NCBI RefSeq assembly: GCF_002760615.1
Contig: NZ_AWWI01000173.1
Location: 1-64,000, forward strand
Length of the DNA: 64,000 bases
Direction of reading: 5' to 3'
From: Puniceibacterium antarcticum
GTDB lineage: Bacteria > Pseudomonadota > Alphaproteobacteria > Rhodobacterales > Rhodobacteraceae
Under the pieces are notes generated by a model that saw only the letters and a list, made by a program, of their open reading frames with translations, did not search any database and was not told the origin of the DNA. Both the position numbers and the translations under genes were made by a program. This document shows positions 9,521 through 23,135 of the stretch, in pieces. Within the stretch, counting starts at the first letter, position 1. Each line of letters opens with the position of its first letter.

Positions 9521-10666
9521 TCAGAAACAGGCCCTGAGCAGCGCCGTGGTGTTTTCCACCGTCATCTCGACCGGGTTGCCGCCAACGCTCGGGTCCTGCA
9601 GGGCCGAGGCGACCAGCGCGTCGATATCCGGGTCCTTGACGCCCAGCGCAGTCAGGTTCGCCGGGATCTTCAACTCGGCATTCAGCGCGCCGACATAGTC
9701 GTAAAAACCCTGAAAACCGCCGTCGATTCCCAGATAGCGCGCCGCCATCTCAAGCCGGTCCTCAACCGCAGGCCGGTTGAACATCAGCACCGGCTGCATC
9801 ACCACGGCATTGGTCGTGCCGTGGTGCGTATGGTGCCAGGCGCCAATCGGGTGGCTCAGCGCATGGATCGCGCCAAGGCCCTTCTGGAACGCCGTAGCCC
9901 CCATCGCAGCGGCAGACATCATCTGACCACGCGCCTCGATATCGCTGCCATCGGCAAACGCACGCGGCAGGTAGTCTTTGACCAGCCGCATGCCTTCAAG
10001 CGCGATGCCTTGGCTCATCGGGTGGTAATGCGGCGAACAGAACGCCTCAAGACAATGGGCAAAGGCGTCCATGCCGGTGCCTGCGGTGATCATCGGCGGC
10101 ATGCCGATGGTCAGTTCCGGGTCGCAGATCACAACCTTGGGCAGCAGCAGCGGGTGGAAAATGATCTTTTTCTCATGGGTCTGCGAATTGGTGATCACGC
10201 TGGCGCGGCCCACTTCGGAACCGGTCCCGGCGGTGGTCGGCACGGCCACGATGGGGGCGATCACACTGGCATCGGCGCGGGTCCACCAGTCGCCGATATC
10301 CTCGAAATTCCATAGCGGGCGGGTCTGCCCGACCATAAAGGCAACCATCTTGGCAAGGTCGAGCCCCGAGCCACCGCCAAAGGCAATCACACCGTCGTGG
10401 CCGCCATCACGATAGGCTTTCACACCGGCTTCGACATTGTGCTCGGTCGGGTTGGGATCAACCTCGGAAAATATCGCGCGGCCCAGACCGGCGGCTTCGA
10501 CCAGATCCAGCGTCTTGGCCGTGATCGGAAGAGTGGCAAGCCCCTTGTCGGTGACCAGCAGGGGTTTCTTGATGCCCGCAGCGGCGCAGGCCTCGCCAAT
10601 CTCGGCGATGCGGCCCGCCCCGAAACGGATGGCGGTGGGATAGGACCAGTTGGCTTTCAGCGACAT
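9521..10666 (-). CDS. Iron-containing alcohol dehydrogenase
   Basis: 381 aa, normal length. The NAD-binding GGGSGLDLAKM motif, VPTTAGTGSEVG, and the metal-binding His residues in AFAHCLEAFCSPHYHP and ALSHPIGAWHHTHHG mark the group III Fe-ADH family. It follows the aldehyde dehydrogenase by 3 bases in an operon with a glutamine-synthetase-like ligase and a TRAP importer. From that context it probably oxidises a terminal hydroxyl, for instance on a gamma-glutamylated amino alcohol, to the aldehyde used by its neighbour. Substrate is inferred, not seen. Confidence 0.88.
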   Translation of the reverse strand: MSLKANWSYPTAIRFGAGRIAEIGEACAAAGIKKPLLVTDKGLATLPITAKTLDLVEAAGLGRAIFSEVDPNPTEHNVEAGVKAYRDGGHDGVIAFGGGSGLDLAKMVAFMVGQTRPLWNFEDIGDWWTRADASVIAPIVAVPTTAGTGSEVGRASVITNSQTHEKKIIFHPLLLPKVVICDPELTIGMPPMITAGTGMDAFAHCLEAFCSPHYHPMSQGIALEGMRLVKDYLPRAFADGSDIEARGQMMSAAAMGATAFQKGLGAIHALSHPIGAWHHTHHGTTNAVVMQPVLMFNRPAVEDRLEMAARYLGIDGGFQGFYDYVGALNAELKIPANLTALGVKDPDIDALVASALQDPSVGGNPVEMTVENTTALLRACF

Positions 10667-10669
10667 GGA

Positions 10670-12043
10670 TCAGGCTTTCTTCAGGTGATAGGATTTCGGA
10701 CGGGTCAGCGCGCGGTAACCGAGTTCCGACAGGCCCGCGCCACGCCCGGTCTGTTTACACCCGGTCCAGCACAGCGCCGGGTCCAGATAATCGGCACGGT
10801 TCATGAACACGGTGCCGGTTTCAAGCCGCGCACCGATGGCCTCAGCCGCAACCGCGTCCTTGGTAAAGATCGCGGCGGTCAGACCAAAGACGCTGTCGTT
10901 CATCAGGACGATCGCTTCTTCATCATCCTTGACCGGCATGATGCCGACCACGGGACCAAAGCTTTCGTCGCGCATCACACGCATGTCATGCGTCACATTG
11001 GTCAGCACCTGCGGCGTGAGGTAGGCGCCGCCATTATCGGCAGGCATCTTCGCGATATGCGCCTTGGCCCCCATGGCAACGGCTTCGTCGATCTGCGCAC
11101 GCACTTCCTTGGCGAAACGCACATTGGCCATCGGGCCCAGCGTCGTCGCCTGTTCCAGCGGGTTGCCCAGGTTCAGGGCGTTGACCCATGCCACGGCTTT
11201 TTCGACAAAAGCGTCATAGAGGCTTTCGTGCACGTATATCCGCTCGATCCCGCAGCAGCATTGCCCGGCATTGAACATCGCCCCATCCATCAGCCCATCG
11301 ACCGCAGCGTCCAGATCGGCATCGGCGCGGACATAGCCCGGATCCTTGCCACCCAGCTCGGTCGCAACGCCGGTAAAGGTGCCGGCTGCGGCACGTTCCA
11401 TCGCCTGACCACCGCCGACGGAGCCGGTGAAGTTGATGAAATCGAACGCATTCTCGGCGATCAGAGTCGAGGTTGTGTCATGGTCCAGCACGATGTTCTG
11501 GAACACGTCCTTGGGCACCCCGGCGGCATGATAGGCATCCGCCAGATGTTCGCCCACAAGGATGGTCTGCGATGCATGTTTCAGAATCACCGTATTGCCC
11601 GCAATCAGCGCGGGCGCGATGGTGTTGTTCGCCGTCATGTAGGGATAGTTCCAGGGCGCGACCACGAACACCACGCCATGCGGTTCAAAGGCGATCTTGC
11701 GCAGGGCCTTGTCGCTGTCCTCGATGACTTTCGGCGCCAAAGACTCAACCGCGATGCGGCCCATATGGCTCGCGCGTTCCTTGAACCCGCCAAACTCGCC
11801 GCCATAGCGCACGGGGCGCCCCATCTGATGCGCCAGTTCCAGAGTCATACGCTCTTTGCTCTGCTCGATCTGGTCGATGGCGCCCATCACCAGATCAATA
11901 CGTTCCTGCAAGGGGCGCGCGGCCCAAGCCGTTTGCGCGGCGCGCGCACGGGCCACGGCGTCCAGCGCGGCGTCCTTGCTCAACGCGTCACGGGTGGCAT
12001 AAACCGATCCGTCGATCGGTGAAATACAGCTGATTGTCGTCAT
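10670..12043 (-). CDS. NAD(P)-dependent aldehyde dehydrogenase
   Basis: 457 aa. ALDH landmarks are PWNYPYM, the cofactor-binding FTGSVGGGQ, the general base in ATELGGKDPG and the nucleophile in GQCCCGIER (three consecutive Cys), plus ESFGPVV. The ATG at 12043 is chosen: it lies 4 bases after the ligase stop with a TGAGGAC site inside the upstream gene. It should oxidise the aldehyde made by the Fe-ADH to a carboxylate. The cluster suggests a gamma-glutamyl-aminoaldehyde substrate, comparable to PuuC, but this is inference. Confidence 0.9.
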   Translation of the reverse strand: MTTISCISPIDGSVYATRDALSKDAALDAVARARAAQTAWAARPLQERIDLVMGAIDQIEQSKERMTLELAHQMGRPVRYGGEFGGFKERASHMGRIAVESLAPKVIEDSDKALRKIAFEPHGVVFVVAPWNYPYMTANNTIAPALIAGNTVILKHASQTILVGEHLADAYHAAGVPKDVFQNIVLDHDTTSTLIAENAFDFINFTGSVGGGQAMERAAAGTFTGVATELGGKDPGYVRADADLDAAVDGLMDGAMFNAGQCCCGIERIYVHESLYDAFVEKAVAWVNALNLGNPLEQATTLGPMANVRFAKEVRAQIDEAVAMGAKAHIAKMPADNGGAYLTPQVLTNVTHDMRVMRDESFGPVVGIMPVKDDEEAIVLMNDSVFGLTAAIFTKDAVAAEAIGARLETGTVFMNRADYLDPALCWTGCKQTGRGAGLSELGYRALTRPKSYHLKKA

Positions 12044-12047
12044 GTCC

Positions 12048-13412
12048 TCAGGCCCTTTCAAAGCCGCGCGCGATTTCCCAGTCGGTCACGGCGCGGTCAA
12101 ACTCTTCCTGTTCCCATTCTGCCGCCCGGGTGTAATGGTCAACCACATCATCGCCCAGAACCTCGCGCAGGAAGGCAGAATTGCGCAAGGTGCCGGTCGC
12201 CGCCATCAGGCTTTGCGGGATGTCCCCGGCCTTGGAATCCTCGTAGACGTCGCCGGTCGTCGGCGCGCCCAGCACCATATTGTCCTCGATCCCCTTGATC
12301 CCGGCCGCCAGCATCACGGCCTGCGCCAGATAGGGGTTGAGGTCGGATCCGCCAATGCGGCATTCGACCCGCACGCCCTTGGTTCCTGCGCCGCACAGGC
12401 GGAATCCGGCGGTGCGGTTGTCTACGGACCAGACGGTCTTGGTCGGCGCAAAGCTGCCCTTGGCAAAGCGTTTATAGCTGTTGACGTAAGGCGCCAGAAA
12501 ATAGGTGTAGTCGGGCGCATAGGCAATCAGCCCCGCCATGTAGTGTTTCATAAGCTCGGACATGCCCAGATCATCCGCCTTGTCTACAAAGGCGGGCGTG
12601 CCATCCTGCCACAGCGACTGGTGCACATGGCTGGAGGACCCGACACGGTCCGCATGCCATTTTGGCAGAAAGCTTGCCGCATGGCCGTGTTGCCAGGCGA
12701 TTTCCTTGACAGCATTTTTTGCGATGGTGTGAAAATCCGCGCAGTCGAGCGCGGGAGAATAGCGGATGTTCAGCTCTTCCTGACCGGCCTCGGCCTCGCC
12801 CTTGGAATTCTCGATCGGAATGCCCGCGGCGTAAAGATGATTGCGCACCGGGCGCATGATCATCTCTTCCTTTGTGGTCTGGAAGATATGGTAGTCCTGA
12901 TTGTAGCCGCTGATCGGGGTCAGATCGCGAAAGCCGCCCTTGCGGATCTCATCCAGGCTTTTCTCGAACAGGAAAAATTCCAGTTCCGTCGCCATCATCG
13001 CGTCAAAGCCCAGTTCGGCCAGGCGCGCGATCTGTTTCTTGAGGATTGCACGGGGGGAATGCGGCACCGGCTGATGATGGTGGTGATCAAGGATATCGCA
13101 CAGCACCATGGCCGTTCCCGCAAGCCAGGGAACCGGGCGCAGGGTAGACAGATCCGGCTGCAACACATAGTCGCCATACCCCGCCTGCCAGCTGGCCGAG
13201 GCATAGCCGGACGGCGTCGCCATTTCCAGATCGGTCGCCAGCAGGTAATTGCAGCAGTGGGTTTCCTCGTACGAGGTTTCGATGAAATTCGCCGCGTGGA
13301 AGCGCTTGCCCATCAGGCGGCCCTGCATATCGACCGCGCAGACCAGCACGGTGTCGATCACACCGCTGGCGACTTGGGATTTCAGGTCTTCAAAGCTCAG
13401 AGTGCCGGCCAT
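12048..13412 (-). CDS. Glutamine-synthetase-like gamma-glutamyl-amine ligase
   Basis: 454 aa. The catalytic GS domain is recognised from MATELEFFLF, ENSKGEAEAGQEELNIRY, the ATP/ammonium-region KWHADRVGSSSHVHQSLW, NSYKRF and RVECRIGGSDLNPYL. The sequence belongs with PuuA/GlnA4-like ligases, which join glutamate to an amine at ATP expense, rather than housekeeping GlnA; the Tyr adenylylation loop is not evident. Neighbours (ALDH, Fe-ADH, FGase-like hydrolase, TRAP importer) fit use of an amino alcohol such as ethanolamine as substrate. That substrate is an inference. Confidence 0.85.
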   Translation of the reverse strand: MAGTLSFEDLKSQVASGVIDTVLVCAVDMQGRLMGKRFHAANFIETSYEETHCCNYLLATDLEMATPSGYASASWQAGYGDYVLQPDLSTLRPVPWLAGTAMVLCDILDHHHHQPVPHSPRAILKKQIARLAELGFDAMMATELEFFLFEKSLDEIRKGGFRDLTPISGYNQDYHIFQTTKEEMIMRPVRNHLYAAGIPIENSKGEAEAGQEELNIRYSPALDCADFHTIAKNAVKEIAWQHGHAASFLPKWHADRVGSSSHVHQSLWQDGTPAFVDKADDLGMSELMKHYMAGLIAYAPDYTYFLAPYVNSYKRFAKGSFAPTKTVWSVDNRTAGFRLCGAGTKGVRVECRIGGSDLNPYLAQAVMLAAGIKGIEDNMVLGAPTTGDVYEDSKAGDIPQSLMAATGTLRNSAFLREVLGDDVVDHYTRAAEWEQEEFDRAVTDWEIARGFERA

Positions 13413-13438
13413 GGTATTCGTCCATTTTCGTGAGGGTT

Positions 13439-13462
13439 GGGGGCACCCGTACGGATGCCCCC
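13439..13462. promoter_or_regulatory. Intercistronic hairpin between dctP and the ligase gene
   Basis: GGGGGCA...TGCCCCC with an inner CCGTACGG palindrome forms an about 11-bp stem with one mismatch. Hairpins after TRAP or ABC binding-protein genes commonly stabilise the upstream message, raising binding-protein levels over downstream genes. No T-run follows. Confidence 0.5.
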
Positions 13463-13472
13463 GGTTTCAGGT

Positions 13473-14510
13473 TCAGCCAAAGGTATAGGGGGGGCCTGCC
13501 TTGCTGATGACCTCGTTATAGTCCTCAAAGATCTTGACGATCTTGGCATGCACTTCGCCTTCTCCGGCGACCTCTTTCCAGAACACCTTGGCGGCCTCTT
13601 CGACCTGCACCCATTCCTCTTGCGGGATCGAGCGCAACTGAAGCTTGTCGCCCTGCGCACGCAGGCGCGCCTCGCCGCCCCAGTACCACTGGTTGCGGTA
13701 GGTGTGACCGGCCTCAATGCCTGACATCACGATGGCCTTGAGGTGTTCGGGCAGATCGGCCCACTGTTTCTGGTTCACAAAGAACGACCCGATCCAGGCG
13801 CCCGAGATGTTGTTGGTCAGGAAGTAGTCGGTCACATCCGCCCAGCCGACAGTGTAATCCTCGGTGATGCCCGACCAAGCCATGCCGTCCAGCTCGCCGG
13901 TCTGCACGGCGACCTGTGCATCCTCGTAGGGAATGGACACGGGAACCACACCAAACTGCGACAGGAACCGGCCCGCCGTGGGGAAGGTATAAAGCTTCAG
14001 ACCATCCAGATCGGCCAGCGACGTGACCTCTTTCTTGGTGTTGAAGTTGCAGGGATCCTGACCCGCAGCGGACAGCCACTGGACGCCAACCTTGGCGTAT
14101 TCTTCACGCCAGATATCGGCAAGACCGTACTGGTTGAACAGCACAGGCACATCCAGCGAATGCTTGGTCGCCAGCGGGAAGTATCCGCCAAACACCTGCA
14201 GCGGTGTGGGCGAGGCCATGGAATCGTCGTCCGAATGCACAGCGTCGATGGTGCCGCGCTGCAGCGCCTGGAACAGCTCGCCTGTGGGCACGATCTGGTC
14301 GGCGTAATACAGCTCGATCTCCATCTCGCCGTTGGCGGCGTTGTTGATGTAGTCGATGGTCGGTTTGGTCACAAACTCACCCAAGGCCGCACCGGCATAG
14401 GTCTGAAAGCGCCATTTGATCGGCGTCTGGGCGCGGACGATGGCGGGGCTTGCCACCGCAGCGGCACCGCCAAGGGCGGCGGTGCGCAGGAAGGAACGTC
14501 TCGAAGTCAT
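13473..14510 (-). CDS. TRAP transporter solute-binding protein (DctP type)
   Basis: 345 aa. A twin-arginine signal (TSRRSFLRTAALGG, then AIVRAQ) precedes the DctP fold: IELYYADQIVPTGELFQALQ, DLDGLKLYTFPTAGRFLSQF, and ELDGMAWSGITEDY around the ligand site. It captures the substrate in the periplasm and hands it to the DctQM membrane pair encoded just upstream. The invariant family Arg that binds carboxylates appears to be replaced or shifted in the GLKLYTFP region, which would fit a non-carboxylate or amine-type ligand. This residue reading needs alignment. Confidence 0.9.
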   Translation of the reverse strand: MTSRRSFLRTAALGGAAAVASPAIVRAQTPIKWRFQTYAGAALGEFVTKPTIDYINNAANGEMEIELYYADQIVPTGELFQALQRGTIDAVHSDDDSMASPTPLQVFGGYFPLATKHSLDVPVLFNQYGLADIWREEYAKVGVQWLSAAGQDPCNFNTKKEVTSLADLDGLKLYTFPTAGRFLSQFGVVPVSIPYEDAQVAVQTGELDGMAWSGITEDYTVGWADVTDYFLTNNISGAWIGSFFVNQKQWADLPEHLKAIVMSGIEAGHTYRNQWYWGGEARLRAQGDKLQLRSIPQEEWVQVEEAAKVFWKEVAGEGEVHAKIVKIFEDYNEVISKAGPPYTFG

Positions 14511-14561
14511 GGTCTTCTCCTTGTTGGTTGGGGTCTGCTCCGTTTGCCGGAGTTCTTGGGG

Positions 14562-15887
14562 TTAATTTGCGTAAACGTAATTGGGCAGCCACAGGGCGAT
14601 CTGCGGAAAGATCATGACAACAGCCAGCGCCAGAGCCATGACCAGAACAAACGGCAGGATCGACTGATAGATATCCTGGATCGAGATTTCCGGCGGCGCC
14701 ATTGCACGCATCAGGAACAGGTTATAGCCAAAGGGCGGCGTCATGTAGGCGATCTGGCAGGTGATCGTGTAAAGCACACCGTACCAGACCAGATCAAAGC
14801 CCAGCTCCCCCACCAGCGGCACATAAAGCGGCGCAACAATGACCAGCATTGCGGTGTCGTCCAGAAAGGTGCCCATCACGATAAAGCTCAGCTGCATCAG
14901 GATCAGGATCACCCAGGGGTTCAGCCCCAGCTGTTCGGTAAACAGCCCCGAGATCGCCTTGACCGCGCCCAGCCCGTCGAACACCGCGCCAAAGGCCAGC
15001 GCGGCGAGGATGATCCACATGAACATGCAAGTGATGCCAAGCGTGTTTCTGACGGAATTCTCAAACACCTCGCGCGTCATGCGCCCCTTGAGAACCGCCG
15101 CCATGAACGCGGCCATTGCGCCGATGGCCGAGCTTTCCACCAGCGATGTCCAGCCGTTCACAAAGGGCACCATCATCACTGCAAAGATGCCCAGCGGCAG
15201 CGCGCCCGCCCCCAGAAGTCGCATCTTTTCCGCCATCGGAATGTCACGTTCTTCGCGTGGCAGCACCGGGCCGAGTTCCGGGTTCCGCCAGCAGCGGATC
15301 ACGATATAGGCGATGAACATGCCCGCCATCATCAGCCCCGGGATCACCCCGGCCAGCCAGAGCTGCCCAACCGGCTGGCGCGCGATCATTGCATAAAGCA
15401 CCAGCACAACCGATGGCGGCACAAGGATGCCCAGACTTGACCCAGCCTGGATCACCCCCGTCACCATCCGCTTGTCATAGCCGCGCTTGAGCAGCTCTGG
15501 CAGGGCAATGGTCGACCCGATGGCCATACCTGCCACTGACAGCCCGTTCATGGCTGAAATAAGTACCATCAGACCAATCGTGCCGATGGCCAGACCACCG
15601 CGCAACCCACCCATCCAGACGTGGAACATCTTGTAAAGATCATCGGCAATTTTGGATTCCGACAGCACGTAGCCCATGAAGATGAACATCGGCAGGGTCA
15701 GCAGCGGATACCACTTCATCAGCTTCATCGCCGCCGAAAACCCGATGTCATAGCCACCCCGGTCGCCCCACAGCAGCAGGGCCGCCATCACTGCGACAAA
15801 CCCGATGGCGCCGAACACCCGCTGACCGGTCAGCAGCATCAGCATCATTGTCGCGAACATCAGCGTGGCAATCAGATCGTAGGACAT
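14562..15887 (-). CDS. TRAP transporter large membrane subunit (DctM)
   Basis: 441 aa with about twelve hydrophobic segments, the size and pattern of DctM. LPMFIFMGYVLSESKIADDLY near residue 75 and GSSLGILVPPSVVLVLYA are family landmarks. It is the sodium-coupled channel subunit. Its ATG shares one base with the stop of the small subunit (TGATG), so translation is coupled. Confidence 0.92.
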   Translation of the reverse strand: MSYDLIATLMFATMMLMLLTGQRVFGAIGFVAVMAALLLWGDRGGYDIGFSAAMKLMKWYPLLTLPMFIFMGYVLSESKIADDLYKMFHVWMGGLRGGLAIGTIGLMVLISAMNGLSVAGMAIGSTIALPELLKRGYDKRMVTGVIQAGSSLGILVPPSVVLVLYAMIARQPVGQLWLAGVIPGLMMAGMFIAYIVIRCWRNPELGPVLPREERDIPMAEKMRLLGAGALPLGIFAVMMVPFVNGWTSLVESSAIGAMAAFMAAVLKGRMTREVFENSVRNTLGITCMFMWIILAALAFGAVFDGLGAVKAISGLFTEQLGLNPWVILILMQLSFIVMGTFLDDTAMLVIVAPLYVPLVGELGFDLVWYGVLYTITCQIAYMTPPFGYNLFLMRAMAPPEISIQDIYQSILPFVLVMALALAVVMIFPQIALWLPNYVYAN

Positions 15888-16444
15888 CAGATCGCCTCAC
15901 CTTTCAGCCGCAGCACGTCTTTCAACAGCTCGGAAATACATTGCAGCAGCATGAGGAATATCCCGAGAATCATGATGGTTTTGATCGGCCACAGCCAGGG
16001 CCGCCAGCCCGAGGGCGAAGTTTCCAGATAGCCGATCTCTTCGCTGCCGGTGATCAGCCCGCCAAAGAACGAAATCGGTTCTGTCCCGAAATAACCAAGG
16101 CTGTAAGCGGTCGATCCGATGGCGCCGTAAAGCAGCACACAGAGGTAGAAGATCAGGAACAGCACGGTGAACAGATCCACCACCGCCTTCTTGCGCGGGG
16201 ACCATTCACCATACAGCAGATCCATCCGCACGTTTGATCCCAGCTGGATCGAATAGGGCCCGCCGAGGATGTAATAGGCGACCATGGTGAACTGCGCCAT
16301 TTCCAGCGTCCACAGCGTGGGCGTGAAAAACGTCTTGTTGATTGATGAGATCAGCAAGATCCCCATCAGCACAAAGATCCCGTACATCATGATCCGACCA
16401 AGGCGGTGGTTGAAGCCATCCACACCACGGATAAACTTACGCAT
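15887..16444 (-). CDS. TRAP transporter small membrane subunit (DctQ)
   Basis: 185 aa from the ATG at 16444. Four hydrophobic segments, with the characteristic WTLEMAQFTMVAYYILGG and VRMDLLYGEWSPRKKAVVDL regions of DctQ. A longer frame (to 16540) overlaps the upstream hydrolase and is not preferred; the chosen start overlaps that gene by 8 bp. It partners DctM in the inner membrane. Confidence 0.88.
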   Translation of the reverse strand: MRKFIRGVDGFNHRLGRIMMYGIFVLMGILLISSINKTFFTPTLWTLEMAQFTMVAYYILGGPYSIQLGSNVRMDLLYGEWSPRKKAVVDLFTVLFLIFYLCVLLYGAIGSTAYSLGYFGTEPISFFGGLITGSEEIGYLETSPSGWRPWLWPIKTIMILGIFLMLLQCISELLKDVLRLKGEAI

Positions 16445-17198
16445 CGCGTCCCCCCTGCACTGTTTCCAGCGCCTCACGTACCCAGCCTGCCAGCATTGCG
16501 GCAATCGACTGCTGCTGCGCCTCGGTCGCGATAAGATCATTGCGGATTTCGATCATCACATTCGGATGCCCGCCCGGCAAAGCATGTTCCCGCAAGGTAT
16601 GGGTCACACGGTCCTCGGGGCCATAGGGCGCGTTGCGCTGGACGTTCAGCAGCGTATGCCGCGCCGCACTGTCCAGCATCGCATCGGCCAGACGCGTGTC
16701 ACTGTCATGCAACACACCGATCTCAACCGTCCGAGGCTGACCATGAAACACCCGGGTAAAGCTGTGAATGGTCACGATCACCGGCGCCGCCACGGTCGCA
16801 ACCTCCTGCGCAAGCGCGGCGCGAAAGGGGGCGTAATACCGGCGCGCCCGCTCGGCCCGGTCCGCCTCGGACAGATCCGCATTGCCCGGCACCACGATCA
16901 CTTCGCTTTGCGCTGGCATGGCGTCGGGCGCCTCGGGCGGGCGATTGCAGTCATAGACCAGCCGCGAAACGTTCGACGCGACCAGCACCGCATCCAACTC
17001 TGCTGCCATACGTTCTGCCACTGCCATGGCACCCGGATCCCAGGCAGCGTGGCTCAGACGATCCGCCTCGGACAGACCCAGACCTTTCAGCCCCTCGGGG
17101 ATAAAGGCCGAAGCATGTTCGCAGACCAGCACCACAGCGCTGGAACCGCCACACACCGTGACGATGGACTGGTTTTCTGAGGTCGCAATCCCTGACAT
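16437..17198 (-). CDS. N-formylglutamate-amidohydrolase-family enzyme
   Basis: 253 aa. The family's metal-site motifs are visible: VLVCEHASAFIP, HAAWDPGA, SRLVYDCNRP and VTIHSFTRVF, with a C-terminal VMIEIRNDLIA. It differs clearly from the bona fide HutG at 22341. As the first gene of the TRAP/ligase/dehydrogenase operon, it may hydrolyse the gamma-glutamyl or other N-substituted glutamate product of this pathway and release free glutamate. A GGGGGACAG site precedes the ATG at 17198. The substrate is inferred from context. Confidence 0.8.
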   Translation of the reverse strand: MSGIATSENQSIVTVCGGSSAVVLVCEHASAFIPEGLKGLGLSEADRLSHAAWDPGAMAVAERMAAELDAVLVASNVSRLVYDCNRPPEAPDAMPAQSEVIVVPGNADLSEADRAERARRYYAPFRAALAQEVATVAAPVIVTIHSFTRVFHGQPRTVEIGVLHDSDTRLADAMLDSAARHTLLNVQRNAPYGPEDRVTHTLREHALPGGHPNVMIEIRNDLIATEAQQQSIAAMLAGWVREALETVQGGRDA

Positions 17199-17253
17199 CT
17201 GTCCCCCGTTTTCCAGAAACCTTCGGGGGAGGTTAAGATTCTGTCAATAACTT

Positions 17254-17290
17254 AATGTAACAGATCTCACATATGCTATCATGATGTAAC
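17254..17290 (+). promoter_or_regulatory. Two ATGTAAC direct repeats, candidate RpiR operator
   Basis: AATGTAAC at 17254-17261 and GATGTAAC at 17283-17290, 29 bp apart, lie in the 117-bp gap between the divergent catabolic operon and the RpiR regulator. A regulator bound here could control both directions. Confidence 0.45.
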
Positions 17291-17315
17291 GAATTCCATC
17301 AAAACGAGCGAATCC

Positions 17316-18188
17316 GTGGCTCAGAGCGACCAGACCATTGCAGAACGCATCCAGTCCGAACTGGACACGCTGACCCGCGCCGAACGACAGCTCGCCCATG
17401 CGATCCTTGAAAATTATCCCGCCAGCGGCCTTGGCCCACTCTCTGCGCTGGCGCGCGATGCCGAGGTATCGGGGCCGACCGTGCTGCGTATGTTGCAAAA
17501 GCTGGGGTATGCCGGCTACCCAGATTTTCAGGCAGAACTGCGCGAAGAACTGCGCGCCAAGGTCAAAAGCCCCATCGCAAAATATGACAACTGGGCCGAG
17601 GCCGCGCCTTCGGGCCACATCCTCAACCGCTTTACCGAGGCGGTGATCGACAACATCCGCCATTCGCTGGCGCAGATCGAACCCGAAGCCTTTGATGCCG
17701 CCTGCGCGCTGATCGCGGACCCCAAGCGCAAGGTGCATATCGTCGGCGGGCGAATCACGCATACCCTGGCAGAATACCTTTACCTGCACATGCAAGTGAT
17801 CCGCCCGGACGTTACACATATCCGCTCTACCTCGAACACCTGGCCGCATGACCTGCTGGATGCGGGACCGGGCGATGTCTTCGTCATTTTCGACATGCGC
17901 CGGTACGAGAATAATACCCTGAAGCTTGCCGAAATGGCGGTGGCGCGGGGCGCGCAGATCATCCTGTTCACCGATCAGTGGCGCTCGCCCATCCACGCTC
18001 TGGCAGGCATCTGTTTTTCAAGCAGGATCGTCGTGCCCTCGGCCTGGGATTCGCTGGCAACCCCGATGCTGCTGGTCGAGACGATGATTTCCGCCGTTCA
18101 AAGCCTGTTGTGGGAGGACACGCGCCGCCGCATGGAAACGCTGGAAGAGATGTTCGACCAGACCAAGCTGTTTCGCAAGTTCACCTGA
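17316..18188 (+). CDS. RpiR-family transcriptional regulator
   Basis: 290 aa starting with GTG. An N-terminal HTH_6 domain (LTRAERQLAHAILENYP, DAEVSGPTVLRMLQKLGYAG) is followed by a SIS sugar-isomerase-like domain (KVHIVGGRITHTLAEYLYLHM, GPGDVFVIFDMRRYENNT). Such proteins sense phosphosugars or other anionic metabolites. It is divergent from the TRAP/ligase operon and very likely its regulator. It ends 5 bases before the convergent hutF stop. Confidence 0.9.
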   Translation: MAQSDQTIAERIQSELDTLTRAERQLAHAILENYPASGLGPLSALARDAEVSGPTVLRMLQKLGYAGYPDFQAELREELRAKVKSPIAKYDNWAEAAPSGHILNRFTEAVIDNIRHSLAQIEPEAFDAACALIADPKRKVHIVGGRITHTLAEYLYLHMQVIRPDVTHIRSTSNTWPHDLLDAGPGDVFVIFDMRRYENNTLKLAEMAVARGAQIILFTDQWRSPIHALAGICFSSRIVVPSAWDSLATPMLLVETMISAVQSLLWEDTRRRMETLEEMFDQTKLFRKFT

Positions 18189-18192
18189 TGCG

Positions 18193-19530
18193 CTACCGCG
18201 CCAGCACGTCCCGCACCACCTGAACATAGCGTTGCGCGATTGCGTCTCGCGCCACATGCCGCCCCTCCTGAACAAGATGCGCCCCGCGCACCCAGACATC
18301 ACGCACCCGAATATCCCGGCCAAAGATCCAGCGGTCCAGCGTCTGCGCACCGTCTGTGCCCAGCTGAAACGGATCGTCCAGCGCCACCAGATCCGCAGGC
18401 GCCCCGACCGCTATCACCGGATCACCCGCGCCCAGTGCCTGCGCGCCTCCGGCCAGAGCCGCATCGAACAGCTGCTGACCAGTTGATCCCGGCTGCGGCG
18501 TCATCACATTGCGCTCACGCAGGCTCAACCGCTGGGAATATTCCAGCGCCTGCAATTCCCCGGCCAACCCGATTTGCACATTGCTGTCGGTGCCCAGACC
18601 GATGCGCCCGCCAGCCTCAAGAAATGCCCGCCCCGCGAATATCCCGTCGCCCAGATTCGCCTCTGTTACCGGACACAGCCCCGCCACAGCGCCAGAGGCC
18701 GCGATGCGCGCAACCTCCCCTTCGGTCAGGTGCGTCGCATGGATCAGGCACCAGTCCGGCGTGACTTCGGCATGATCAAACAGCCAGTCCACCGGGCGTT
18801 GCCCGCTGAAGGCGATACAATCCTCGACCTCTTTCACCTGCTCAGCGATATGGATATGCACCCGCCGCCCCGGCAGCGCCGCCACCAGCGCGGACAGATC
18901 CGCACCACTGGCCGCCCGCAGCGAATGAGGCGCATAACCCACCAGATCCCCGGGCCGGGTGGCCAAAGCATCGCAGTGGCTGATCAGCTCAAGAAACGAC
19001 TCGAAACCATGCAGGAACCGCCTTTGTCCCGCCCCCGCAGGAACGGGGCCAAAGCCACCGTGAGCATAGAACACCGGCAAATGGGTCAGGTTCAGCCCCG
19101 TCGCATGGGCTGCGGCAAAGATGCGCGCCGACATCTCGGCGGGGTCATCATAGGACTGCCCGTCAGGCGCATGGTGCAGATAGTGAAACTCGCCCACGCG
19201 GGTATAGCCCGCCTCCAACATCTCGACATAGGCCATCTCGGCAATGGCCTGCGCGCCGTCGGGGTCCAGTTGCAGCGCAAAGCGATACATCATCTCGCGC
19301 CATGTCCAGAAGCTGTCGCGCATGGCCCCTCGCTGTTCGGTAAGGCCGGCAAACCCGCGCTGGAACGCATGGCTGTGCAGATTGCTCATCCCCGGCAGCA
19401 AGGTGTCCACACCGGCAGCAACGCCCGCCCCGGCAGGCTCAACCGCAGTGATCACGCCATCACTGACCGTGATCGCGATATTCTCTGCCCAACCTTCAGG
19501 CAGCAGGGCCTGTTTTACGACAATCTGCAT
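18193..19530 (-). CDS. hutF: Formimidoylglutamate deiminase
   Basis: 445 aa amidohydrolase. The metal ligands are in LLPGMSNLHSHAFQRG, HIHIAEQ, LIHATHLTE and LGTDSNVQIG. The GAMRDSFWTWREMMYRFA stretch is characteristic of HutF. It converts N-formimino-L-glutamate to N-formyl-L-glutamate plus ammonia, feeding HutG. This defines the five-step histidine pathway found in Pseudomonas and many alphaproteobacteria, as opposed to the four-step HutG formiminoglutamase route. It is divergent from hutI with a shared operator region. Confidence 0.93.
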   Translation of the reverse strand: MQIVVKQALLPEGWAENIAITVSDGVITAVEPAGAGVAAGVDTLLPGMSNLHSHAFQRGFAGLTEQRGAMRDSFWTWREMMYRFALQLDPDGAQAIAEMAYVEMLEAGYTRVGEFHYLHHAPDGQSYDDPAEMSARIFAAAHATGLNLTHLPVFYAHGGFGPVPAGAGQRRFLHGFESFLELISHCDALATRPGDLVGYAPHSLRAASGADLSALVAALPGRRVHIHIAEQVKEVEDCIAFSGQRPVDWLFDHAEVTPDWCLIHATHLTEGEVARIAASGAVAGLCPVTEANLGDGIFAGRAFLEAGGRIGLGTDSNVQIGLAGELQALEYSQRLSLRERNVMTPQPGSTGQQLFDAALAGGAQALGAGDPVIAVGAPADLVALDDPFQLGTDGAQTLDRWIFGRDIRVRDVWVRGAHLVQEGRHVARDAIAQRYVQVVRDVLAR

Positions 19531-20812: not shown

Positions 20813-22341
20813 TGACACTTACGCTGACACCCGGCACCGTGGATCTGGCCACACTGGCCGACATCTACTGGCACCAGACCCCGGTCACGCTCGACGCCTC
20901 GGCCCTGCCGGGGATCAGGGTCGCGGCTGCACGGGTGGCCGAGGTCGCCGCCGGCAGCGATCCGGTCTATGGCATCAACACAGGCTTTGGCAAACTCGCC
21001 TCCCTGCGCATCGCGCCGGGGGATGTGACCACCCTGCAGCGCAACCTGATCCTGTCCCATTGCTGCGGCGTTGGTGATCCGCTCGCGCCCGAGATCGTGC
21101 ACCTGATCCTGACGCTGAAGCTGTTGTCGCTGGGGCGTGGGGCGTCGGGTGTGCGCCCGGAACTGGTAGCACTGCTGGAGGGGATGCTGGCCCGTGGCGT
21201 GATCCCCGTCATTCCCGAAAAAGGCTCGGTTGGCGCCTCGGGTGACCTTGCCCCGCTGGCCCATATGGCCGCTGTGATGATCGGCGAGGGAGAGGCATGG
21301 GTGCACGGCGTCCGCCTGCCGGGATCGGATGCTTTGACCCGCGCGGGGCTGAAACCCGTCGTTCTGACCGCCAAAGAGGGGCTTGCCCTGATCAACGGCA
21401 CGCAGGTCTCGACCGCATTGGCTTTGGCCGGGCTGTTCCGCGCCATGCGCGCGCTGCAGGCCTCGGTCGTGACCGGCGCGCTGACAACCGATGCGGCGAT
21501 GGGATCGACCGCGCCCTTTGCCGAAGAAATCCAGCTGCTGCGCGGCCAACCCGGCCAGATCGAAGTTGCCGCCACCCTGCGCGCCCTGCTCGACGGGTCG
21601 GACATCCGCGACAGCCACACCGATGGGGACGAGCGGGTACAGGACCCCTATTGCATCCGCTGCCACCCACAGGTGGGCGGTGCCTGCCTTGACCTTTTGC
21701 GACAGTCCGCCACCACCCTGCGGATCGAGGCGAATGCCGCAACCGACAACCCGCTTGTCCTGTCGGACGGCAGCATTGTGTCGGGCGGGAATTTCCACGC
21801 CGAACCCGTGGCCTTTGCCGCTGATCAGATCGCCCTTGCCGTAGCCGAAATCGGGGCAATTGCCCAGCGGCGTGTGGCGCTGCTGGTGGACCCGACCCTG
21901 AACTACGGCCTGCCCGCGTTCCTCAGCCCCGCACCGGGCCTGAACTCTGGCCTGATGATCGCCGAGGTGACCACCGCCGCCCTGATGAGCGAGAACAAGC
22001 AGCTCGCGCATCCCGCTTCGGTCGATTCCACCCCCACCAGCGCCAGCCAGGAGGATCACGTGTCCATGGCCTGCCACGGCGCGCGGCGGCTGCTGCAGAT
22101 GACCCAGAACCTGTTCTGGATCATCGGGGTCGAGGCGATGACCGGCGCGCAGGGCATCGAAATGCGTGGCCCGCTGAAAACCTCGCCCAGCCTGCAGGCG
22201 GTGATCGCAAAGATCCGCGAAACCGTCCCCGCCCTTGCCGAAGACCGCTACATGGCACCCGATCTGGACGCTGCAGGGGCGCTTGTGGCCAGCGGCGCGC
22301 TGGCGCAGGCTGCGGGCATCCCCTTGCCGGAGGTTTCCTGA
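20812..22341 (+). CDS. hutH: Histidine ammonia-lyase
   Basis: 509 aa. The Ala-Ser-Gly that cyclises to the MIO electrophile is in [14 protein letters not shown] (about residue 143). [25 protein letters not shown] and [10 protein letters not shown]-like ([13 protein letters not shown]) segments confirm HAL. It deaminates histidine to urocanate, the first step of the pathway. The start at 20812 is fixed by the TGATG junction with hutI and the conserved TLTLTPG N-terminus. Confidence 0.97.
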
Positions 22342-23135
22342 TGCATCCCGTCACCGTCACCCGGGGCGACAGCCCGCTGGTTCTGGGCTTTCCCCACACC
22401 GGCACCTATGTGCCCGACGACATCCGCGCCCGCCTGAACCCCGAAGGGCGGATGCTGCGCGACACCGACTGGCATATCGACTCGCTCTACCGCGATCTGA
22501 TACCCGGAATCACCTGCGTCGCGGCGAATTTCCACCGCTACGTCATTGACGCCAACCGCGACCCCGACGGAGCATCGCTCTACCCCGGGCAGACCACCAC
22601 CGGCCTTGTCCCGCTGAACACCTTCGACAACACGCCGATCTGGGCCGAAGGGGCAGAACCGACCGAGGCTGACATCGCCCAGCGTCTGGCCGACTGGCAC
22701 CGCCCCTATCACGCGGCGCTTGAGGCGGAACTGGCGCGGGTCAAGGCCCGGCACGGCATCGCGATCCTCTATGACTGCCACTCGATCCGGTCGGTCATTC
22801 CCTGGCTGTTCGACGGCACCCTGCCCGATTTCAACATCGGCAGCGACAGCGGCGCCACCTGCGCGCCTGCGCTGGAACAAGCCGTGCTGAAACGCTGCAC
22901 CGCGTCTGGCCGCACCACCATCCTGAACGGGCGCTTTCGCGGCGGCTGGACCACCCGGCACTACGCCACGCCCGCCACAGGCATTCACACAATCCAGATG
23001 GAGCTCGCACAGTCCAGCCATCTTGCCCGCGAGACACCTGATTTTGCGCTGGACCCTGACAAATCCGACAGCCTGCGCGCCGTTCTGAAACCCATCCTGC
23101 AAGATCTCATCGACCTTGCCCCCACCCTCGCCTGA
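22341..23135 (+). CDS. hutG: N-formylglutamate deformylase
   Basis: 264 aa. LGFPHTGTYVPDDI, DTDWHIDSLY, FHRYVIDANRDPDG, ILYDCHSIRSVIP and TTRHYATPATGIHTIQMELAQ identify the HutG form used after HutF. It releases formate and glutamate from N-formylglutamate. The start overlaps the hutH stop by one base. Confidence 0.95.
   Translation: MHPVTVTRGDSPLVLGFPHTGTYVPDDIRARLNPEGRMLRDTDWHIDSLYRDLIPGITCVAANFHRYVIDANRDPDGASLYPGQTTTGLVPLNTFDNTPIWAEGAEPTEADIAQRLADWHRPYHAALEAELARVKARHGIAILYDCHSIRSVIPWLFDGTLPDFNIGSDSGATCAPALEQAVLKRCTASGRTTILNGRFRGGWTTRHYATPATGIHTIQMELAQSSHLARETPDFALDPDKSDSLRAVLKPILQDLIDLAPTLA

Follow-up and report, generated by a model that had tools for sequence, protein, structure and literature searches.

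The question raised by this locus of Puniceibacterium antarcticum is whether the ligase, dehydrogenase, hydrolase, transporter and regulator genes at positions 9521-18188 of the analysed stretch of DNA (64,000 nucleotides, hereafter the window) form a route for the use of an amino alcohol, and if so, of which one. A first-pass annotation had proposed that an amino alcohol, for example ethanolamine, is gamma-glutamylated and finally released as glutamate and an amino acid such as glycine, a proposal that is supported here, with ethanolamine as the likely substrate, and agrees with both a published marine pathway (PMC10132767) and Csal_0678 (PDB 4uab). Judging by homology and gene order, we consider it very probable that the cluster corresponds to an operon known from bacteria of the Roseobacter group, which takes up ethanolamine and gamma-glutamylates it. 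The pathway is thus known, ordinary, and widespread in marine bacteria, and the genome appears able to use ethanolamine, e.g., from membrane lipids, by this published route. Points of some interest are the solute-binding protein, which differs in a close relative, and the ethanolamine ammonia-lyase found in the same genome.

Gene content and proposed steps

All eight genes (8/8) are present as full-length, intact open reading frames, and the GS-like ligase, iron-containing alcohol dehydrogenase, aldehyde dehydrogenase, FGase-like hydrolase, TRAP importer and RpiR regulator named by the annotation all have matches to their families. Seven of them form a tightly packed run on the minus strand, in the order FGase, DctQ, DctM, DctP, ligase, aldehyde dehydrogenase and alcohol dehydrogenase (17198 down to 9521), with neighbours closely spaced or overlapping, and the RpiR gene is divergent from this operon:

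17316..18188, plus strand: RpiR-family regulator (HTH_6 6.8e-14, SIS 1.4e-14), in the same place in the MED193 cluster
17199..17315, no strand: divergent intergenic region, possible promoter/operator (TTGACA hexamer, A/T-rich block)
16437..17198, minus strand: FGase-family amidohydrolase, predicted gamma-glutamylglycine amidohydrolase, GGAH (FGase 2.3e-42; 2odf, Atu2144, 3.3e-75)
15887..16450, minus strand: TRAP small permease DctQ, EtoV (DctQ 9e-14)
14562..15887, minus strand: TRAP large permease DctM, EtoW (DctM 4.2e-67)
13473..14510, minus strand: TRAP solute-binding protein DctP, EtoX, predicted ethanolamine binder (DctP 7.8e-24; Csal_0678/4uab)
12048..13412, minus strand: GS-like ligase, predicted gamma-glutamylethanolamide synthetase, ETAGA (Gln-synt_C 8.1e-96; 5dm3)
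10670..12046, minus strand: aldehyde dehydrogenase, predicted to convert the gamma-glutamyl aldehyde to gamma-glutamylglycine, GAADDH (Aldedh 1.4e-114; GQC and ELGG motifs kept in the translation)
9521..10666, minus strand: iron-containing alcohol dehydrogenase, predicted gamma-glutamylethanolamide dehydrogenase, GETADH (Fe-ADH 6.5e-50)

The steps in this genome are all read from homology and gene order; the binding and induction data come from Phaeobacter sp. MED193. Periplasmic ethanolamine would be captured by EtoX (DctP) and imported through EtoVW (DctQM), after which the GS-like ligase would use ATP to join it to glutamate, giving gamma-glutamylethanolamide. The bound alcohol would then be oxidized to gamma-glutamylglycine by the Fe-dependent alcohol dehydrogenase followed by the aldehyde dehydrogenase, and the FGase-like amidohydrolase would split this product into glutamate and glycine. 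Control of the operon is expected to lie with the divergent RpiR protein, which probably senses ethanolamine or one of the pathway products, although its ligand is a guess. On the minus strand of the intergenic region (17199-17315), a TTGACA hexamer is found in the window as well as in 26/26 aligned relatives; an A/T-rich block, conserved in part, precedes it, and the two together are a possible promoter and RpiR operator. An operator palindrome upstream of the operon was borderline only (inverted repeat 0.511 vs. a 95% level of 0.50 from column shuffles) and was not retained.

Substrate of the ligase and the binding protein

Membership of the ligase in the Gln-synt_C family leaves room for an ammonia-using glutamine synthetase placed in an operon for some unrelated substrate. 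The roles of the FDGSS loop, the flap glutamate, and the other conserved motifs are well established for glutamine synthetases. The window ligase keeps ELEFF, QEE, SSHVH, NSYKR, NRTAGFR, and ECR; compared with the separate GlnA candidate of the same genome (contig C100), it lacks the FDGSS ammonium loop with its aspartate and the flap glutamate (GFEAP replaced by GSFAP), a pattern shared by its best solved relative in the PDB, 5dm3 (763 bits). It is thus a GS-family protein that lacks the ammonium site of genuine glutamine synthetases, which argues against an ammonia-only enzyme, and it scores far below the NCBIfam cut-offs for glutamine synthetase (241 vs. 469.6 and 238 vs. 429). On the residues and the cut-offs this alternative was rejected, and its probability is close to nil.

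For the binding protein, the closest PDB entries are 4uab and 4xf5 (2.8e-145), which lies well within the published e-60 limit for DctP proteins of the Csal_0678 type, with the reservation that the database size differs from that of the published search. Entry 4uab is Csal_0678 of Chromohalobacter salexigens with ethanolamine, its platform residue being Glu220 (PMC12410723), and the usual carboxylate-binding arginine is missing in this protein (PMC4646407). The ITEDYT stretch that holds the presumed platform glutamate is identical in Csal_0678 and the window DctP, where E217 presumably corresponds to Glu220 if a numbering offset of three residues is assumed. The two proteins nevertheless share only 66% identity (487 bits) and fall into different clades of the tree, separated by a long branch (support 100/99), so that a shifted preference under the same cluster logic, e.g., for 3-aminopropanol, alaninol, or serinol, is conceivable. 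We consider such a shift very unlikely, as E217 and many aromatic residues are among the 91 positions invariant across 101 DctP sequences of all clades, and a same-genus relative with a DctP of the other clade has a ligase, an aldehyde dehydrogenase, and an alcohol dehydrogenase 89-95% identical to those of the window, meaning that nearly the same enzymes act downstream of either DctP type.

In this relative (locus L107), the unit is flanked by histidine-utilisation (hut) genes as in the window, and the operon proteins other than DctP are 73-95% identical to ours, DctP only 64%. The drop in DNA identity between the two loci spans approximately 14600-13400, i.e., the DctP gene together with the spacer that follows, and in the tree the DctP of L107 falls on the side of Csal_0678. 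One reading is that the DctP gene alone was exchanged between clades within a conserved operon, possibly adjusting the affinity, or the preference among ethanolamine and related amino alcohols, which we put forward tentatively and regard as rather improbable. Another locus (L019) has the window-type DctP in the same hut-flanked layout; an exchange would therefore more likely have happened on the L107 side, its direction not being proven. Towards its 9800-9501 end the three-way DNA alignment shows low identity, which probably reflects an edge effect.

Genomic neighbourhood and distribution in the family

From 18193 onward the unit is adjoined by histidine-utilisation genes, hutF (assigned by NCBIfam) ending at 18193, only a few bases away from where the RpiR gene ends (18188); hutI, hutH, hutG, and hutU are putatively assigned from their translations. 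This proximity could suggest that the FGase-like gene serves histidine use rather than the ethanolamine operon, but an FGase-family gene is already present among the hut genes, namely the HutG candidate at 22341-23135 (Pfam FGase 1.5e-71), and the window protein, whose best solved relative in a PDB search is 2odf (Atu2144, 3.3e-75), falls short of the score for HutG N-formylglutamate deformylases (28.7 vs. 278.75 bits). In addition, inspection of 99 loci showed that the FGase gene is still part of the ethanolamine cluster at loci that lack hut genes. A second HutG was rejected on these three grounds, and we give a role in histidine use hardly any credence.

Among 149 sampled genomes of the family, orthologues of DctP were found in 86 (E <= 1e-90) and those of the ligase in 92 (E <= 1e-120). 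The complete eight-gene unit occurs in the same order at 72 of the 99 inspected loci, which were picked by DctP (80 as its closest matches) and do not form an unbiased sample: at 69 of them the eight queries line up precisely as in the window, and a further three have the same order plus adjoining hut matches, so the arrangement is not due to chance. Many of the remaining loci are cut off by a contig end within the cluster. Coupling of the pathway genes to a TRAP importer and an RpiR regulator is the rule in these loci, and given the 72 complete loci and the 86 genomes with DctP, the view of the first-pass annotation that it is unusual was wrong; this is the standard layout of the Roseobacter group, MED193 included.

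Deviating loci were also observed. No aldehyde dehydrogenase match lies between the ligase and the alcohol dehydrogenase at L065 and L076. The genomes of L109 and L121 (G014, G138) are near-complete and encode an EtoX-like TRAP transporter, but yield no ligase match above approximately 200 bits. At L110, L122, and L123 (G026, G091, G121) the ligase is elsewhere in the genome, apart from the EtoX-like TRAP genes. One cluster (L032) is found on a MAG labelled Deltaproteobacteria and its DctP is nearly identical to that of L033, the label probably being a binning error.

The same genome also encodes the ethanolamine ammonia-lyase subunit EutB (1.3e-208, contig C127:21370-22665; L006, L102), adjoined by a EutC-like frame. 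Together they may provide an alternative, so that two ethanolamine routes could coexist. Beside them lies a frame that looks like a choline/ethanolamine-type kinase.

Comparison with known systems

The cluster of Phaeobacter sp. MED193 (MED193_10021-10056) has the order RpiR, GGAH, EtoV, EtoW, EtoX, ETAGA, GAADDH, GETADH (PMC10132767), and the window has the same eight families in the same arrangement, thus carrying a probable EtoX-type cluster. The purified EtoX of MED193 binds ethanolamine with a Kd of 7.9 uM and does not bind phosphoethanolamine, phosphocholine, or glycerol phosphates, and growth on phosphoethanolamine raises the proteins of the operon (PMC10132767). Unlike the MED193 cluster, the window unit adjoins a hut cluster.

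The best PDB matches are Csal_0678 (4uab) of Chromohalobacter salexigens for the window DctP and 5dm3 for the window ligase, the latter presumably from the same organism and gene neighbourhood as Csal_0678; Vetting et al. 2015 (Biochemistry 54:909) is reportedly the reference for this system. Papers that cite it disagree on the enzyme steps in C. salexigens, which are given as demonstrated (PMC10132767) or as predicted in silico (PMC6529630).

The comparison with the GlnA4 route of Streptomyces, made in the first-pass annotation, agrees with the literature: GlnA4 (SCO1613) of Streptomyces coelicolor was shown to make gamma-glutamylethanolamide, and the route proposed there has the same chemistry, likewise ending in a step by an FGase-family enzyme (PMC6529630). 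It differs from the window cluster in having a permease instead of a TRAP importer and EpuRI as the regulator (PMC6529630). A separate Puu-like gamma-glutamylputrescine cluster was observed in the genome of P. antarcticum (contig C31, L103 8449-13309), with two GS-like ligases, an amidotransferase-like protein, and a FAD oxidoreductase, and the C31 ligase shares only ~30% identity with that of the window. As the annotation had also pointed out, the putrescine pathway PuuABCD follows the same gamma-glutamylation logic as the window cluster; it uses, however, a FAD oxidoreductase where the window has the Fe-dependent alcohol dehydrogenase, and a hydrolase of the class I amidotransferase type where the window has the FGase.
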